DNA of 59,045 nt from an uncultured Pelagibacteraceae bacterium (GTDB taxonomy: Bacteria; Pseudomonadota; Alphaproteobacteria; Pelagibacterales; Pelagibacteraceae): contig CACJVQ010000006.1 in assembly GCA_902596915.1 (NCBI GenBank), positions 1 to 59,045 of the forward strand, given 5' to 3'. The notes under the pieces are model-generated. The model worked only from the letters and a program-made list of their open reading frames with translations. It did no database searches and had not been told where the DNA came from. The position numbers and the translations under genes are program-made. Numbering within the stretch: the first letter of the stretch is position 1; each line of letters starts with the position of its first letter. Below, in pieces: positions 26,212-48,587 of this stretch.

Positions 26212-27144
26212 ATGAGAGAACTAAACAGAAAAATTGTTGTTTTCATTTCAGCAATTTTTTTATTGATTAGCATGGGGTCAGTATCTTTTGCTGACGGACA
26301 TGGTAAAAAAATCTTATTCAGTATTAAAGGACCTGGTTCTGGAAACCCATTCTGGGCTTCTGTAACAAAAGGTGCTGAAGAAGAGGCAAAAAAATTAGGA
26401 GTAAAATTAATTTTAATTGCTCCTCCACAAGAAGGTGATGTACAAGCCCAGATTAACCAAGTCGAGGACCAACTTGCAAAAGGGGTTGATGCACTAGCAC
26501 TAGCACCAGGAGATCCAAACGCTTTTGCACCAATTGTAGACGATGCTATTAAAAGCGGTGTTCCAGTTGTATTTGTTGATACAAAAGGAATTAATGAAGG
26601 TGTAACTTTCATTGGGACAAATAATATGAACGGTGCAGAATTAGCTGCAAAATTTATTTGTGATAAAACTCCAAAAGGATCCGATGTTGCAATTCTTACT
26701 GGGATTGAGTCTCAATCGACTGCATTACTAAGAAGAGATGGTGCAATTAAAGGATTTAAAAACTGTGGTTTAAACCTTGTTGCTACTCAAACAGCTGAGT
26801 GGGATACTGCAAAAGGTAGATCAGTTACTGAGTCAATTATCTTGAAAAATCCTAACATCAAAGCAATCTTTGCTTCTAATGACAATATGGGTTTAGGTGC
26901 TATGCAAGCACTAAAAGATGCTGACATGAATGATGTGATCGTTGTTGGTTTTGATGCTACTCCAGATGCTGCTACTAGCATCCTAAAAGGAGAGATGACT
27001 GCAACAATAGCTCAGTTCTCATACAACATGGGCGCGTATGGAGTTAAATATGCTCTTGAGCTAGCTAATGGTGGAAGTATTGATCCTAATATTGATACTG
27101 GTACACAATTAGTAACAACAGAAAACGCTAACGATTTTAAATAA
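26212..27144 (+). CDS. Periplasmic sugar-binding protein (ribose/fructose type)
   Basis: A 310-residue CUT2 solute-binding protein that delivers a sugar to the adjacent permease. The N-terminus has charged residues, a hydrophobic stretch and the likely cleavage region SVSFADG around residue 27. The mature part shows the family pattern ISIKGPGSGNPFW-like start, VDALALAPGDPNAFAPIVD, GVPVVFVDTKG and the hinge strand VVGFDATPDA. It follows the frameshifted permease by 108 bases, with its own ribosome site. A strong terminator follows. Ribose, fructose or a 6-deoxysugar are candidate ligands given FucU and ribokinase downstream. Confidence 0.9.
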   Translation: MRELNRKIVVFISAIFLLISMGSVSFADGHGKKILFSIKGPGSGNPFWASVTKGAEEEAKKLGVKLILIAPPQEGDVQAQINQVEDQLAKGVDALALAPGDPNAFAPIVDDAIKSGVPVVFVDTKGINEGVTFIGTNNMNGAELAAKFICDKTPKGSDVAILTGIESQSTALLRRDGAIKGFKNCGLNLVATQTAEWDTAKGRSVTESIILKNPNIKAIFASNDNMGLGAMQALKDADMNDVIVVGFDATPDAATSILKGEMTATIAQFSYNMGAYGVKYALELANGGSIDPNIDTGTQLVTTENANDFK

Positions 27145-27165
27145 TCTTTAGAAAAATCAAAATTA

Positions 27166-27198
27166 AAAGGGTGGAATTTTATTTCACCCTTTTTTTTT
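27166..27198 (+). terminator. Intrinsic terminator after the sugar-binding-protein gene
   Basis: A 9-bp stem (27169-27177 with 27181-27189, one G-U pair, 3-base loop) is followed directly by nine Ts (27190-27198). It lies 24 bases past the stop codon and upstream of fucU, so it should reduce transcription of fucU and the ribokinase gene. Confidence 0.9.
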
Positions 27199-30838: not shown

Positions 30839-31813
30839 ATGAAAAAAAGTTTTAAATTATTTTTAGCTGCCGCATTTTTGGTAACTGAATTTTTTGTTGT
30901 TGCACTTCCACTTATGATTACTTCTGCAAAAGCAGATGGTCACCCAATTCAAGCTATTACACACGCTGGTTTTGGTGGTGGTACAGACGTAACTACTAGA
31001 ATGATGTTGTTAAGAACTAGAAGGTATCTAAAACAAGATATGCAATTAGTTAACAAGAAGGGTGGTGGTGGAGCTGCATCTATGGATTACATGATGACTT
31101 TACCAGCAGATGGTCAACATACTTTAACTTGGACTACAGGACATGCTGTTTCTATGGCATTAGGAAAAACAAAAGTTAAATTAAGTGATATGCAACCACT
31201 TGCTAGAGGAACTGATGATCCTCAATTATTTGTAGTAAATTGTAAAAATGATATTAAAGACGCTAAAAAATTTATTAGCGCTCAAAAATCAAAATCATTA
31301 AAATATGGTACTACTCATGTTGGTGGTATTGATGATGTAAGTGCGATTGCTTTTACAAAAAAAGGAAAATTAACAGATCCAACAATTGTTCCTTATAAAG
31401 GTGTTGGTCCTATTAAAACTAACCTTATCAAAGGAGATATAGATGTAGGTGTTTTAAACTTAGGAGAAGCTGTAACAGAAATTGAAGATGGTACATTGTG
31501 TGTTTCAGTTGTACTTGCTAGCAATAGAATGGAAAAATTAAGTAATGTTCCTACTGCTACTGAGTTAGGAATACCGGTTGTGTTATCAACTGTTAGAGGA
31601 TTTGTAACAAGAAAAGGTGTTCCTGCTGACAGAAAGAAACAATTGGAAGATGCAATGATAAAAGCTATGGAGCATAAATATTTCCAAAGCTTTTTAACTG
31701 ACATCGGACTTGATTCAACTAGTGTTGTTGGAGCTGATGAGTGGGGCAAGCAAATGGAAGTAATGCTTGCAGAAATGACTGCTCAACTTAAAGCTTTGGG
31801 TTACATTAATTAG
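30839..31813 (+). CDS. tctC: Tripartite tricarboxylate transporter substrate-binding protein TctC
   Basis: A 324-residue periplasmic binding protein of the TTT (Bug) family. A Lys-rich start, a long hydrophobic segment and a cleavage region near ITSAKADG (about residue 31) form the signal peptide. Mature features are THAGFGGGTDVTTRMMLLR, NKKGGGGAASMDYMM, VPYKGVGPIKTNLIKGDIDVGVLNLGEA and the C-terminal FVTRKGVPADRKKQLEDAM. Bug proteins bind carboxylates of many kinds. tctB and tctA follow, separated by tandem hairpins that probably limit transport-subunit expression. Confidence 0.92.
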   Translation: MKKSFKLFLAAAFLVTEFFVVALPLMITSAKADGHPIQAITHAGFGGGTDVTTRMMLLRTRRYLKQDMQLVNKKGGGGAASMDYMMTLPADGQHTLTWTTGHAVSMALGKTKVKLSDMQPLARGTDDPQLFVVNCKNDIKDAKKFISAQKSKSLKYGTTHVGGIDDVSAIAFTKKGKLTDPTIVPYKGVGPIKTNLIKGDIDVGVLNLGEAVTEIEDGTLCVSVVLASNRMEKLSNVPTATELGIPVVLSTVRGFVTRKGVPADRKKQLEDAMIKAMEHKYFQSFLTDIGLDSTSVVGADEWGKQMEVMLAEMTAQLKALGYIN

Positions 31814-31823
31814 TCATAAGAAA

Positions 31824-31849
31824 GTACATTTTTTTTATGAATAATGTAC
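31824..31849 (+). promoter_or_regulatory. Hairpin presenting the tctB start codon in its loop
   Basis: A 7-bp perfect inverted repeat (31824-31830 and 31843-31849) encloses a 12-base T-rich loop that contains the ATG at 31837. Folding could affect ribosome access to tctB. It lies immediately upstream of the terminator hairpin. Confidence 0.45.
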
Positions 31850-32343
31850 GAAATAAAAAAAGGGCAAACAAAAGTTTGCCCTTTTTTTTTAAAGATGAAT
31901 TTAAAGTTTTTTTTGTAATTATATTTGTTTCGACAATATTATTAGTAACTACTTTTACATTTGATAAGGTTCCTCCAATTTTAAATAGAGGCATACAACC
32001 TGCTACTTTCCCAAAAGGATTGTTAGTATTGATAATGTTTTTAACTGCAGTTATTTATTATCTTTCATTCAAAAATCCTTGGAAAAAAGAAAAAAAACTT
32101 CCAAAACCATTTTTTTTAACAATCTTAAGCTTTATTTTATTTATTATAATTTCTAAAACATTAGACTTTTTCTTAGCTATATCAGTACTCTCAATATTTG
32201 TTTCATACAATTGGGGTGAAAAGAGAATTTTTTATTTATTATTAGTTGGAATTTTGTTTCCATTAGTAGTTTTCATATTTTTTGAAATGATATTGGGACT
32301 TAGATTTCCTCCAGGAATAATTACAAACCTTTATTATTACTAG
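31837..32343 (+). CDS. tctB: Tripartite tricarboxylate transporter small membrane protein TctB
   Basis: A 168-residue protein with four hydrophobic segments (about residues 24-40, 59-75, 88-107 and 120-150), normal for TctB. It contains IQPATFPKGLLVLIMFL and a C-terminal FFEMILGLRFPPGI that is typical of the family. The first 20 residues (MNNVRNKKRANKSLPFFFKD) are encoded across a terminator hairpin. No in-frame ATG, GTG or TTG is obvious between it and the first membrane helix, so the ATG at 31837 stands. tctA follows one base later. Confidence 0.87.
   Translation: MNNVRNKKRANKSLPFFFKDEFKVFFVIIFVSTILLVTTFTFDKVPPILNRGIQPATFPKGLLVLIMFLTAVIYYLSFKNPWKKEKKLPKPFFLTILSFILFIIISKTLDFFLAISVLSIFVSYNWGEKRIFYLLLVGILFPLVVFIFFEMILGLRFPPGIITNLYYY
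31854..31890 (+). terminator. Intrinsic terminator inside the 5' coding region of tctB
   Basis: A perfect 8-bp GC-containing stem (31862-31869 with 31874-31881, AAAA loop) is extended by A-T pairs and followed by nine Ts (31882-31890). It is a textbook terminator that works in sequence terms on both strands. It starts within the first dozen codons of tctB, so transcription into tctBA would require read-through. Confidence 0.85.
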
Positions 32344-32344
32344 T

Positions 32345-33817
32345 ATGGACAATCTTTTATTAATGATGGCACCTTTGTTTAGTTCTAAGTTATTAATTGT
32401 TTTAATTTTTGGGACTTTATTTGGATTGATCTTAGGCGTTCTTCCAGGATTAGGCCCTACAACTGGTGGTGCATTAATTTTACCATTTACTATGACTTTA
32501 GACCCTCTTTCAGCAATAGTTCTCTTAACATCAATTTACTGTGCTGGAACATACGGCGGTGCAATCACTGCAGTTTTAATAAATACCCCTGGAACTCCAG
32601 CAGCAGCAGCCACTTGTCTGGATGGTTATCCCCTAGCTCAAAAGGGGGAAGCAGGAAGAGCCTTGGGTATGGCAACAGTTTCAAGCACAGTGGGTGGAAT
32701 TTTTAGCGTAATAGTTTTGGTATTTTTTGCACCTGTTTTAGCTCAACTTGCCTATGAATTTGGTCAACCAGAATATTTTGCGTTAGCTATTTTTGGTTTA
32801 ACAATGCTAGCATCAATTGGTGAAGGAAGTCCGATCAAAAATTTAATCGCTGGTGCGTTTGGAATTTTAATTTCTACTATTGGAAAAGATTTTATGACTT
32901 CAATTGATAGATTTACTTATGGTATAAATGAGCTTTCTGTAGGAATAGGATTTATACCAGTTGTAGTAGGTTTATTTGCAATAAGCGAAATGTTAACTCA
33001 GTCTACACTTCTTGATCAAGTTTTCAAAAGAGTTGCACTAAAAGCGGTAAAACTTCCATCCATAGATGATTATAAAAAAACTTGGAAAACTATTCTTAGA
33101 TCTAGTGGTATTGGTTCGTTTATTGGAGTTTTGCCAGCTGAGGGTGGGACTGTAGCATCCTTAATTGGTTATTCAGAAGCGAAAAGATTTTCTAAAGAGC
33201 CAGAAGAATTTGGAAAAGGGTCAATAGAAGGTATTGCCGGTGCTGAGGCAGCAAATAATGCTGCTACAGGTGGTGCAATGGTTCCAACGTTAGCATTAGG
33301 AATACCTGGAAGTGCTACAACAGCAGTCATATTAACTGGGCTTATAATTCATGGTGTCAGACCAGGTCCAGATCTATTTAGAGAGCAACCAGACTTTTTG
33401 TATGGAATTTTTGGGGCAATGTTAATTGCTAATGTTTTATTTTTTATTTTTGGATTTTTTGGTGCAAAATTATTTGCAAGAATAACTCTTGTTCCTAACA
33501 AAATTTTATGGCCTATGATATTTGCTGTATCTGTGTGTGGTACTTATTCTTTAAGTCAGTCAATAATTGATGTTTGGATTATGTTATTTTTTGGTGTGCT
33601 TGGATTTTTTATGAGAAGATTTGGTTTTTCAGTTGTTCCAGTAATTATAGGATTAATTTTAGGAGAATTAGTAGAAGGAACCTTAAGACAATCTTTAGTT
33701 ATTTTTGATGGAAATTGGCTGATGTTTTTAACAAGACCTATAGCTTTAACCTTTTTTATTTTATCTTTAATTGCATTAGCTTTTCCTTTATTAAGGTCAA
33801 AAAAACAAAAAAAATAG
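32345..33817 (+). CDS. tctA: Tripartite tricarboxylate transporter large permease TctA
   Basis: A 490-residue membrane protein with about eleven to twelve helices, the ion-coupled channel subunit of the TTT system. Highly conserved family stretches are GLILGVLPGLGPTTGGALILPF, YGGAITAVLINTPGTPAAAATCLDGYP, FIGVLPAEGGTVASLIGYSEAKR and GGAMVPTLALGIPGSATTAVIL. Length is typical (about 500). It is followed one base later by an SDR gene, so transporter and enzyme form one operon. Confidence 0.95.
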   Translation: MDNLLLMMAPLFSSKLLIVLIFGTLFGLILGVLPGLGPTTGGALILPFTMTLDPLSAIVLLTSIYCAGTYGGAITAVLINTPGTPAAAATCLDGYPLAQKGEAGRALGMATVSSTVGGIFSVIVLVFFAPVLAQLAYEFGQPEYFALAIFGLTMLASIGEGSPIKNLIAGAFGILISTIGKDFMTSIDRFTYGINELSVGIGFIPVVVGLFAISEMLTQSTLLDQVFKRVALKAVKLPSIDDYKKTWKTILRSSGIGSFIGVLPAEGGTVASLIGYSEAKRFSKEPEEFGKGSIEGIAGAEAANNAATGGAMVPTLALGIPGSATTAVILTGLIIHGVRPGPDLFREQPDFLYGIFGAMLIANVLFFIFGFFGAKLFARITLVPNKILWPMIFAVSVCGTYSLSQSIIDVWIMLFFGVLGFFMRRFGFSVVPVIIGLILGELVEGTLRQSLVIFDGNWLMFLTRPIALTFFILSLIALAFPLLRSKKQKK

Positions 33818-35585: not shown

Positions 35586-36842
35586 ATGAAAAAAATGCTA
35601 ATTGCTTTAATTGCTTTTGCATTCACTTCTACATCTTCTTTTGCAGGACCAAAAATTGAGGTTTTGCACTGGTGGACATCAGGTGGTGAAGCAGCTGCAC
35701 TTAAAGTATTAAAAGATGATTTCGCTGCAAACGGTGGTGAATGGTTAGACATGCCTGTAACAGGTGGTGGTGGAGATGCTGCCAACGTTGCACTTAAAGC
35801 AAGAATAGTTGCAGGAGATCCTCCTTCAGCTTCTCAAATTAAAGGTCCAACAATTCAAGAATATGATCAAGAAGGAGTAGTTGCTCCATACAACATTGAT
35901 CCTATTGCTCAATCAGAAGGTTGGGATGGATTATTAGATCCTATGATTGCTGCAGTTCACAAATGTCAGAATAACAGTGGTCCATATTGTGCGGCTCCAG
36001 TAAACATTCATAGAATTGATTGGATGTGGGCTAACAAAGCAGTATTTGATGCTAATGGAATTTCAGTTCCTACATCTTGGGATGAATTAAATGCAGCAGC
36101 AGAAAAACTTCAAGCTGCAGGTATCATTCCTTTTGCACATGGTGGACAAGCTTGGCAAGACGCAACAGTCTTCGAAGCAGTAGCTATGGGTATTGGTGGA
36201 AATAACTATTACAAAAACTGTTATGTAGATCTTAAAGAAACTTGTTTAAGAAGTGAGACAACTGTAAAAGTTTTTGATCAAATGAGAAAACTTCAAGGTT
36301 TTACTGATGAAGGTAGCCCAGGAAGAGATTGGAACGTTGCTACTGGAATGGTTATTGAAGGAAAAGCTGGTTTCCAAATTATGGGTGACTGGGCAAAAGG
36401 TGAATTTACTGCTGCTGGAAAAGTACCAGGTGTAGATTACTATTGTGCTGCAACTCCATCTAATAATGGATACTTGTACAATGTAGACAGCTTTATATTC
36501 TACAAAACAAGTGACCCAGACAAACAAGAAGGTCAAAAATTATTAGCTAAATTAATGATGGGTAAAAACTTCCAAAAAGTTTTCAACTTATACAAAGGAT
36601 CAATTCCAGCACGTTTAGATGTGCCAATGGATGAATTTGATAAATGTGCAAAAACATCAAATTCTGACATCAAAACTGCAGGAGCAAGTGGTGGATTAGT
36701 TCCAAGTTTTGCTCATGGAATGGCTCAAGGTAATACTATGAAAGCTGCTTTACAAGATGTGATTACAGAACACTTTAATTCTGACATGTCCTCAGTTGAT
36801 GCAGCAAATGCTTTGGCTGATTCAGTATTAGATAATATGTAA
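35586..36842 (+). CDS. CUT1 sugar ABC transporter substrate-binding protein (glucose/mannose type)
   Basis: A 418-residue binding protein with a clean signal peptide (MKKMLIALIAFAFTSTSSFAG, cleavage near residue 20). The mature start IEVLHWWTSGGEAAALKVLKD and the regions IKGPTIQEYDQEGVVAPYN and PTSWDELNAAAEKLQAAGI, followed by HGGQAWQDATVFEAVA, are characteristic of glucose/mannose-type binding proteins of this family. It is followed by a strong terminator and then two permeases and an ATPase. The ligand is most likely a hexose or related sugar, by family only. Confidence 0.92.
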   Translation: MKKMLIALIAFAFTSTSSFAGPKIEVLHWWTSGGEAAALKVLKDDFAANGGEWLDMPVTGGGGDAANVALKARIVAGDPPSASQIKGPTIQEYDQEGVVAPYNIDPIAQSEGWDGLLDPMIAAVHKCQNNSGPYCAAPVNIHRIDWMWANKAVFDANGISVPTSWDELNAAAEKLQAAGIIPFAHGGQAWQDATVFEAVAMGIGGNNYYKNCYVDLKETCLRSETTVKVFDQMRKLQGFTDEGSPGRDWNVATGMVIEGKAGFQIMGDWAKGEFTAAGKVPGVDYYCAATPSNNGYLYNVDSFIFYKTSDPDKQEGQKLLAKLMMGKNFQKVFNLYKGSIPARLDVPMDEFDKCAKTSNSDIKTAGASGGLVPSFAHGMAQGNTMKAALQDVITEHFNSDMSSVDAANALADSVLDNM

Positions 36843-36854
36843 AATACAAAAATT

Positions 36855-36888
36855 AAGGCCACCTAATTTTTAGGTGGCCTTTTTTTTT
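36855..36888 (+). terminator. Intrinsic terminator between binding-protein and permease genes
   Basis: A perfect 12-bp stem (36855-36866 with 36870-36881, 3-base loop, core GGCCACC) runs into Ts ending at 36888. It starts 13 bases after the binding-protein stop and ends 25 bases before the first permease start, so it should make the binding-protein transcript more abundant than the permease transcript. Confidence 0.93.
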
Positions 36889-48002: not shown

Positions 48003-48587
48003 ATGAATGATAAAGAGCTTCAAGATAAACAGTTACAAGAGCAAAGTGAAAAAGTTGCAAGTAAAGATGATTTTCCGATATTTTGGATAGATAGAATTTC
48101 TCTATTTTTAAGCCACACAATTAAATATTTAATTCCCATAATAGTACTTGTTATGATGTACGAAATTTTCATGAGATATGTCTTATTTAAACCAACTTTG
48201 TGGGCCAATGAATTATGCCTATGGTTGGCTGGTGTTTGTTATTTAGTTGGGGGTATCTATGCAACAAGACTAAGAAGCCATATTAGAATAGTATTATTAT
48301 ATGATTATGTCAGTAGACCGACACAGCGAATTTTTGATCTAATTAGTACTGTAGTTATTGTTCTTTTTGCAGCAGCTGTAATTTATGGTGGTATGGAAGA
48401 TGCATACAGATCATTTGTAAACTGGGAGAGATTTGCAACTTATTGGGATCCTCCAATTCCAGCTACTATGAAACCACTTACACTTATATGTGTATTTCTT
48501 ATTGCACTACAGTCTATTAACAATTTAATAATTGATTGGAGAAATCCTAAAGAAAGACAATACGATCCCGCTAAAGATTTAGAATAA
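48003..48587 (+). CDS. dctQ: TRAP transporter small permease DctQ
   Basis: A 194-residue protein with four membrane helices (IKYLIPIIVLVMMYEIFM, LWLAGVCYLVGGIYA, VVIVLFAAAVIYGG and LICVFLIALQSINNLI). The FLFKPTLWANE-like motif (YVLFKPTLWANELCLWL) and the RLRSHIRI segment are typical of DctQ. The ATG at 48003 is chosen over the TTG two codons upstream. The N-terminus is long and charged. dctM begins one base after its stop. Confidence 0.9.
   Translation: MNDKELQDKQLQEQSEKVASKDDFPIFWIDRISLFLSHTIKYLIPIIVLVMMYEIFMRYVLFKPTLWANELCLWLAGVCYLVGGIYATRLRSHIRIVLLYDYVSRPTQRIFDLISTVVIVLFAAAVIYGGMEDAYRSFVNWERFATYWDPPIPATMKPLTLICVFLIALQSINNLIIDWRNPKERQYDPAKDLE

Follow-up and report, generated by a model that had tools for sequence, protein, structure and literature searches.

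The tctB gene of a Pelagibacteraceae transporter operon begins with an intrinsic-terminator-like hairpin and T-run that lie inside its own reading frame (31855 to 31890, + strand, tctB codons 7 to 18), and sequence comparisons indicate that selection acts on this RNA structure as well as on the frame. We think it probable that the element is a partial terminator within the operon, embedded in the coding sequence of the first membrane gene, and that it determines how much binding protein is made relative to the membrane subunits.

The window (the whole 59,045-nt stretch of DNA analyzed, contig G000:C6 of a 1.0 Mb, 78% complete genome) holds the genes tctC, tctB and tctA in this order on one strand, with identities confirmed by Pfam. 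tctC (30839 to 31813, + strand; TctC, PF03401, E = 1.1e-17) encodes the periplasmic binding protein of a tripartite tricarboxylate-type (TTT) transporter, tctB (31837 to 32343, + strand; TctB, PF07331, E = 1.3e-11, match from residue 26) the small membrane subunit, and tctA (32345 to 33817, + strand; TctA, PF01970, E = 3e-158) the large membrane subunit. The tctC stop codon reads from the sequence at 31811 to 31813, leaving a 23-nt spacer before tctB. The hairpin and T-run occupy +18 to +53 of tctB rather than the intergenic region. They follow the binding-protein gene and precede most of the membrane-gene sequence, all on one strand.

The first-pass annotation had described a terminator with an 8-bp perfect stem, an AAAA loop and nine Ts, and this description was borne out. 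The 5′ arm (GGGCAAAC, 31862 to 31869), the AAAA loop (31870 to 31873) and the 3′ arm (GTTTGCCC, 31874 to 31881) form eight pairs, five of them G-C, followed by nine Ts (31882 to 31890). An A-tract of seven As (31855 to 31861) can pair with seven Ts of the T-run, which would lengthen the stem to 15 bp. Folded alone, the terminator reaches −19.5 kcal/mol (z = −5.5), and the fold of 31790 to 31900 reaches −30.8 kcal/mol (z = −5.2); in each case 0/200 shuffles were as low. A stable GC-bearing hairpin directly before a U-run is the sequence signature of an intrinsic (Rho-independent) terminator, and as a sequence feature the terminator is real. A window scan that required Ts after the stem did not list the tctB site, a miss that would be explained by the stem pairing with its own Ts, against the Ts-after-stem rule. 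The structure is near-symmetric, such that 31885 scores as a terminator on the minus strand too, where no gene was seen reading in. A known RNA family at the site was considered and rejected: Rfam returned no match in the window at the gathering threshold, and the 52 permissive hits, mostly to sRNA families, were all sub-threshold.

Codons 7 to 18 translate to KKRANKSLPFFF, so that the N-terminus of TctB is encoded by the terminator, as the annotation had also proposed. Upon synonymous recoding with the window's codon usage, 0/20,000 sequences folded as well as the native terminator; the same procedure gave 0 and 2 of 20,000 for two other orthologs (L021 and L029, respectively). The stem uses the rare codons CCC (32/678 proline codons) and AGG (49/536 arginine codons). 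A chance or protein-driven hairpin is ruled out for the window's group by recoding together with the covariation and frozen codons described below.

We assembled orthologous junctions from a family-wide tctB search of 197 genomes, which gave tctB-like matches in 40 genomes and 46 match rows. Twenty-nine rows (L003 to L031, with the window's own locus as L003) form the ortholog set; four others were left aside, namely G158, a fragment at the end of a contig, and three matches that were very weak. A second collection, the best 80 of 282 relatives, is made up entirely of Pelagibacteraceae, includes Ca. Pelagibacter ubique SCGC AAA795-J21, overlaps the set of 29 and comprises 56 distinct sequences. 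We take these Pelagibacteraceae relatives to be the SAR11 group. The orthologs are mostly close relatives, and the counts of 29 and 80 represent far fewer independent events.

A hairpin and T-run lie within tctB codons in 29/29 orthologous junctions, between +12 and +54 of tctB, and the terminator is present in 80/80 loci of the second collection. Stem pairing across the 5′ ends of related tctB genes, which the first-pass annotation had suggested comparing, is conserved while the letters change: the 5′ arm appears as GGGCAAAC, GGGACAAAC, GGGCGAAC, GGGGCAGAC, GGGCAGA or GGGCGGAT, with 3′ arms to match, and one ortholog (L030) loses a single stem pair. The loop varies in length by multiples of three. 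The annotation had counted homologs that lose the hairpin and keep the amino acids against its proposal, and we found the opposite, with the peptide shifting from KRANKSLPFFF to KGTNKSLSLFF or KKGRFNSALF under a kept hairpin. Among the 25 distinct rows, 93.9% of terminator cells are paired and 5/15 terminator pairs show double-sided changes, such as G-C to A-U and A-U to G-C. Eight to nine unbroken Ts follow directly after the GC stem in 21/25 distinct rows of the window's group; the run is interrupted in L025 and has 5 to 6 Ts in L029 to L031.

For the two-stem structure (the terminator plus the start-codon stem discussed below), 0/500 shuffles did as well in covariation score or in the fraction of cells paired, and slid controls scored less than half of the real structure. 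Two of the five measures were weak, as 15/500 shuffles reached the number of double-change pairs and 456/500 the number of pair types. We note that covariation here counts sequences, not events, and that the rows are related.

Codon choice shows the same constraint. When two orthologs share a residue, they use the same codon in 2764/2881 pairs (0.959) across the terminator (alignment columns 6 to 18), compared to 2879/4588 (0.628) in columns 19 to 39 and 22265/37725 (0.59) further on. As the frame stays open while the hairpin and its codons are conserved, both the frame and the RNA are under selection.

The tctB start and frame are conserved through the hairpin. The ATG (31837 to 31839, + strand) is kept in 28/29 orthologs, the exception being L016, where a 1-nt insertion led us to count from another in-frame ATG. 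In L016 and its twin L253, which lie on the same contig, the extra base is near the A-tract and puts the usual ATG out of frame, with an internal ATG in frame; this is either a sequencing error or a shifted start. With L253 dropped and L016 counted from its other ATG, all rows counted (108/108) keep an open frame between the start and the VPPIL motif. Could tctB nevertheless start downstream of the hairpin, which would make the 31837 start wrong and the element an intergenic terminator of the usual kind? The match to Pfam TctB covers residue 26 onward, and a sister group of TctB proteins begins right after the position matching the terminator; by alignment, about 18 N-terminal residues, 12 of them terminator-encoded, precede the part shared with that group. 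Yet the window has no in-frame ATG or GTG within 90 nt, and its single TTG (+39) lies inside the 3′ arm, is absent from L017, L019, L030 and L031 and is found elsewhere in L029. Moreover, the frame is open in every row though the spacer before the start ranges from 11 to 30 nt in all phases, and loop length changes in threes. We therefore regard a downstream start as very unlikely.

Upstream of the terminator, a 7-bp perfect inverted repeat flanks the start codon. Its 5′ arm, GTACATT (31824 to 31830, + strand), is in the noncoding tctC-tctB spacer, and its 3′ arm, AATGTAC (31843 to 31849, + strand), covers tctB codons 3 to 5, which places the ATG in a 12-nt loop as drawn. The first-pass annotation had proposed this stem, and its letters are present in the window and conserved in 26/29 orthologs, as well as in 80/80 loci of the second collection (best 80 of 282), but the fold favored in the window is a different one. 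The stem is weak (−3.6 kcal/mol folded alone, z = −2.1), with 95.5% of its helix cells paired across the alignment. It is the favored fold, with a probability of at least 0.97, in 21 of the 26 orthologs that bear the motif, and has a probability of 0.0 in the window (L003) and in L004 to L007. In these five, the 3′ arm pairs instead with the last tctC codons, in a fold that in the window lies within 31802 to 31850, and the ATG is paired wholly in L003 to L006 and partly in L007. In 10 of the 21 orthologs that favor the start stem, the whole ATG is unpaired with a probability of at least 0.98, and is thus open rather than locked. The motif is absent in L029 to L031, which represent two other genera and are the most distant sampled, and the stem is therefore not essential to the device.

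The conservation of the noncoding arm suggests a role for the start stem. We hypothesize that it affects ribosome loading, perhaps in a manner tied to the ribosome finishing tctC, and this is the least supported part of our account. That the repeat is instead a DNA operator or another protein site unrelated to the terminator strikes us as highly improbable. It is a perfect inverted repeat, and in 5/26 orthologs, the window included, it is not the favored RNA fold; however, its 5-bp half sites are anywhere from 13 to 19 nt apart, unlike those of a fixed-spacing operator, and inspection by eye shows both arms of L020 altered together at the sixth pair, from T-A to C-G. An alignment gap hides the L020 double change from the pair count, and the one double change that was counted in this helix falls in L029 to L031, rows without the motif.

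Related hairpins are found at tctB in other lineages of the order. A Pfam TctB search of 397 genomes gave matches in 189, from which 91 loci were examined and clustered by protein identity; these are at most 88 genes, given the duplicates L034/L072, L041/L059 and L047/L126. In group 0 (31 loci), the hairpin extends from −6/−11 to +36/+41 of tctB, is followed by 6 to 7 Ts and holds the start codon, which is GTG in every locus, inside its 5′ arm (31/31). An ATG at this place would break a G-C pair. In L050, the 5′ arm also holds GGAGG. The window genome has a second TTT operon that belongs to this group (L125, on contig G000:C33), with a tctB GTG at about 1102 in the locus, within a terminator-like stem. 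Recoding of the coding half of the group 0 hairpin alone left 2,813 and 10,459 of 20,000 sequences folding as well, which is uninformative because the hairpin needs the noncoding upstream arm. Covariation in this group is modest: 1/11 pairs has a double change, a number that 455/500 shuffles reach, and controls slid by +2 and +3 score nearly as high as the real structure (0.123 vs 0.139).

In group 2, every one of the 13 loci (13/13) carries a hairpin, located at +14 to +55 and followed by a weak U-tract (4 to 5 of 8 Ts). Recodings that fold as well are few (1, 3 and 42 of 20,000), and covariation is the strongest of the groups, with double changes in 7/14 pairs and 0/500 shuffles as good; codon freezing is absent (0.608 vs 0.593 and 0.573). 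The number of pair types was not above shuffles in any of the three group covariation tests (reached by 456, 500 and 496 of 500). In group 3 (10 loci), the hairpin is intergenic, at −34 to −10, with 3 to 4 Ts. This group joins the window's group in the TctB tree with moderate, unstarred support (83/87) and long branches, and the alignment puts its start codon immediately past the site of the window's terminator. The hairpin therefore has a constant position with respect to the membrane domain, and the start codon lies before or after it. Embedded hairpins may have arisen more than once, and we do not take the tree as a basis for counting origins. In group 4 (four fetches, three genes), the hairpin finder detected either a weak simple hairpin or nothing, and it detected nothing in L128 or L131. 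As a control, only 1/72 tctB/tctA junctions in groups 0 to 2 has a hairpin of −11 kcal/mol or stronger.

To place the element against its background, we scanned the window and 400 kb of a relative. Among 434 ORF starts, five have a hairpin of −11 kcal/mol or stronger in −12 to +66, and three reach −13 kcal/mol or stronger, namely the window's tctB, its ortholog and L079. The start-overlapping hairpin of L079 was rejected as an artefact that arises when the ORF is extended to a TTG further upstream. Across 459 ORFs in the same stretches, scanned on both strands, we found 34 sites with a strong hairpin and T-run, only two of which, the window's tctB and its ortholog, are in the first 60 nt of an ORF. 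Apart from this pair and L079, 5/34 sites are mid-ORF; two of these, in L089 and L080, are weak (−9.1 and −10.1 kcal/mol) and fall slightly beyond the 60-nt limit, with their first bases 72 and 75 nt inside the ORF. A terminator that doubles as coding sequence, called unusual in the first-pass annotation, is unusual for the SAR11 gene starts scanned, whereas among the SAR11 tctB loci examined it is the usual condition.

Twelve terminators in the scanned stretches lie on the same strand as, and within 45 nt of, an upstream gene; a same-strand site in L077, 730 nt past its upstream gene, was left out. By Pfam, the upstream gene encodes a periplasmic binding protein in nine cases and a porin in one and has no match in two, and the 9/12 is biased upward because L081, one of the 20 G063 stretches, was picked for the tct ortholog that it contains, and the window has orthologs of two of the three sites there. 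What follows is a membrane-transporter gene (seven), RbsD/FucU (two), another enzyme (two) or the end of the stretch (one). Two elements of this kind are intergenic in the window, both on the + strand: one at 27165 to 27193, after a binding-protein gene (26212 to 27144), and one at 36855 to 36881, between a binding-protein gene (35586 to 36842) and its permease gene (36913). The latter is a perfect 12-bp hairpin that scores as a terminator on both strands. On the minus strand of L094, at about 16702 and 18454, terminators follow short proteins without a Pfam match and precede glutamine synthetase and ammonium transporter genes.

We also compared DctQ junctions of TRAP operons, using 30 loci from a genus-wide search (L144 to L173, many near-identical) and the window's own at 48141. 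With the first in-frame ATG taken as the start, a junction hairpin is present in 31/31. In the 30 relatives, it ends 2 to 7 nt before the ATG and is followed by 6 to 8 Ts in 23 and by four in seven, so that hairpin and T-run cover the usual position of the ribosome site and not the frame. The window's dctQ hairpin, with 3 Ts and 22 to 45 nt upstream of the first ATG, is unlike most relatives examined. Outside the order, a class-wide search gave tctB matches in 107/289 genomes; in the best-scoring 30 loci, five have a hairpin followed by at least five Ts. Four of these hairpins end 38 to 101 nt before the domain, and the fifth, in L101, reaches into the start of the domain and, at a GC of 0.65, could be a chance hairpin in GC-rich DNA. 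Embedding was thus not clearly seen among these 30 loci, judged by distance to the domain rather than by start codons.

Under the reading we favor, RNA polymerase would transcribe tctC and the beginning of tctB, the hairpin at 31855 to 31890 would form, and most polymerases would be released in the T-run, giving a tctC mRNA with a stable 3′ hairpin. A minority would read through to yield tctBA, and a ribosome starting tctB would have to traverse the hairpin. As the hairpin is downstream of the tctB start, any full-length tctB transcript must be a read-through product, and a promoter placed before tctB could not bypass it. We infer termination, its efficiency, the TctC excess and the ribosome effects from the sequence. 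A level of TctC kept above that of TctBA, as the first-pass annotation suggested, would fit the conservation of the hairpin, its place after binding-protein genes and the experimentally studied precedent in Clostridia considered below.

The poor T-runs of groups 2 and 3, which nevertheless keep strong hairpins, mean that a function other than termination must be considered there. One such function would be that of a barrier to 3′-5′ exonucleases, stabilizing the tctC mRNA after cleavage in tctB in the manner of E. coli malE, where an excess of binding-protein mRNA based on decay is known (PMC5927463). As the main function of the hairpin this seems unlikely to us, since a barrier does not need the long unbroken T-runs seen in most distinct rows of the window's group, and T-runs are likewise long at the two binding-protein hairpins that begin at 27165 and 36855.

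A tentative extension of the partial-terminator reading is that, in several SAR11 TTT lineages, one element serves as terminator, start-site lock and N-terminal coding sequence at once, such that tctB expression would need ribosomes to catch the nascent RNA before the T-run is made. We give no greater weight to a translation-gated attenuator, in which termination and tctB initiation would be mutually exclusive, quick ribosome loading would open tctBA and slow loading would close it, and structure around the ATG would delay the ribosome and favor termination. In group 0, start and terminator cannot be used simultaneously, as the GTG is within a terminator arm. In the window, the terminator stem begins 18 nt after the A of the ATG, within reach of a starting ribosome. 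Gating is also consistent with the retention of the noncoding 5′ arm of the start stem and with the ATG being largely or wholly paired in the competing fold of the five orthologs that do not favor that stem. A 2010 survey (PMC2965389) proposed terminators that also sequester the ribosome site and, in its account of them, had no proven case at the time; from its sequence, group 0 is a good candidate for such an element. Against gating, the start stem is weak, the ATG is open in nearly half of the orthologs that favor it, and polymerase would take only a few seconds from the ATG to the T-run, leaving little chance for ribosomes. No antiterminator fold that breaks the terminator stem was seen by eye; competing folds were seen only around the ATG.

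The closest parallel to the partial-terminator reading comes from cellulolytic Clostridia, where Wu et al. (2022, PMC9045158) used Northern blots and reporter plasmids to study intergenic stem-loops between binding-protein and translocator genes. As that paper describes them, a terminator-like stem-loop follows the binding-protein gene of ABC-importer operons and precedes the membrane genes, and the stem gains length where its 3′ U-tract pairs with bases on the 5′ side, both as in tctB. The binding-protein excess described there is for SAR11 deduced from sequence. The Clostridia elements were sought in intergenic regions (of more than 50 bp in the survey), whereas the SAR11 hairpin is inside the frame of a membrane gene, in a TTT operon, and compensatory substitutions preserve it even as the amino acids vary. 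Differential decay of malE-malF mRNA (PMC5927463) likewise raises the binding-protein share of operon mRNA, with a model in which 3′ structure protects the upstream gene; it is post-transcriptional, needs no T-run, and the survey in that paper excluded junctions with terminator motifs. Attenuators in 5′ leaders (PMC2965389) are alike in that a terminator at a gene start decides read-through. They lie between the promoter and the first start codon and alternate between two folds, whereas the SAR11 site falls within an operon and within coding sequence.

Structured RNAs of Ca. Pelagibacter ubique were reported by Meyer et al. (2009, PMC2704228) in the same group of organisms, including a motif upstream of rhtB that often precedes a U-run. 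That screen ranked intergenic regions longer than 100 bp, which puts hairpins inside coding starts out of its scope, and the word "tricarboxylate" is absent from its main text. ORF-internal 3′ ends have been treated generally in E. coli and Borrelia (PMC7815308, PMC10319736), with no permease-start case named in the parts that concern them. Among the top-ranked open-licence PMC papers searched, none described a terminator located within the start of a permease gene, either in SAR11 or in TTT operons. The function is known in kind, and what appears new, judged from these papers, is its placement inside the start of a membrane gene, kept by compensatory change.

These hairpins are candidates for a device, readable from sequence in uncultured genomes, that fixes the proportion of binding protein to membrane subunits, and one that screens of intergenic regions would miss. 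They also provide clear cases in which an RNA signal persists although the encoded amino acids differ. Group 0 ties the terminator to the start codon itself, which makes the proposed link between termination and initiation directly testable.
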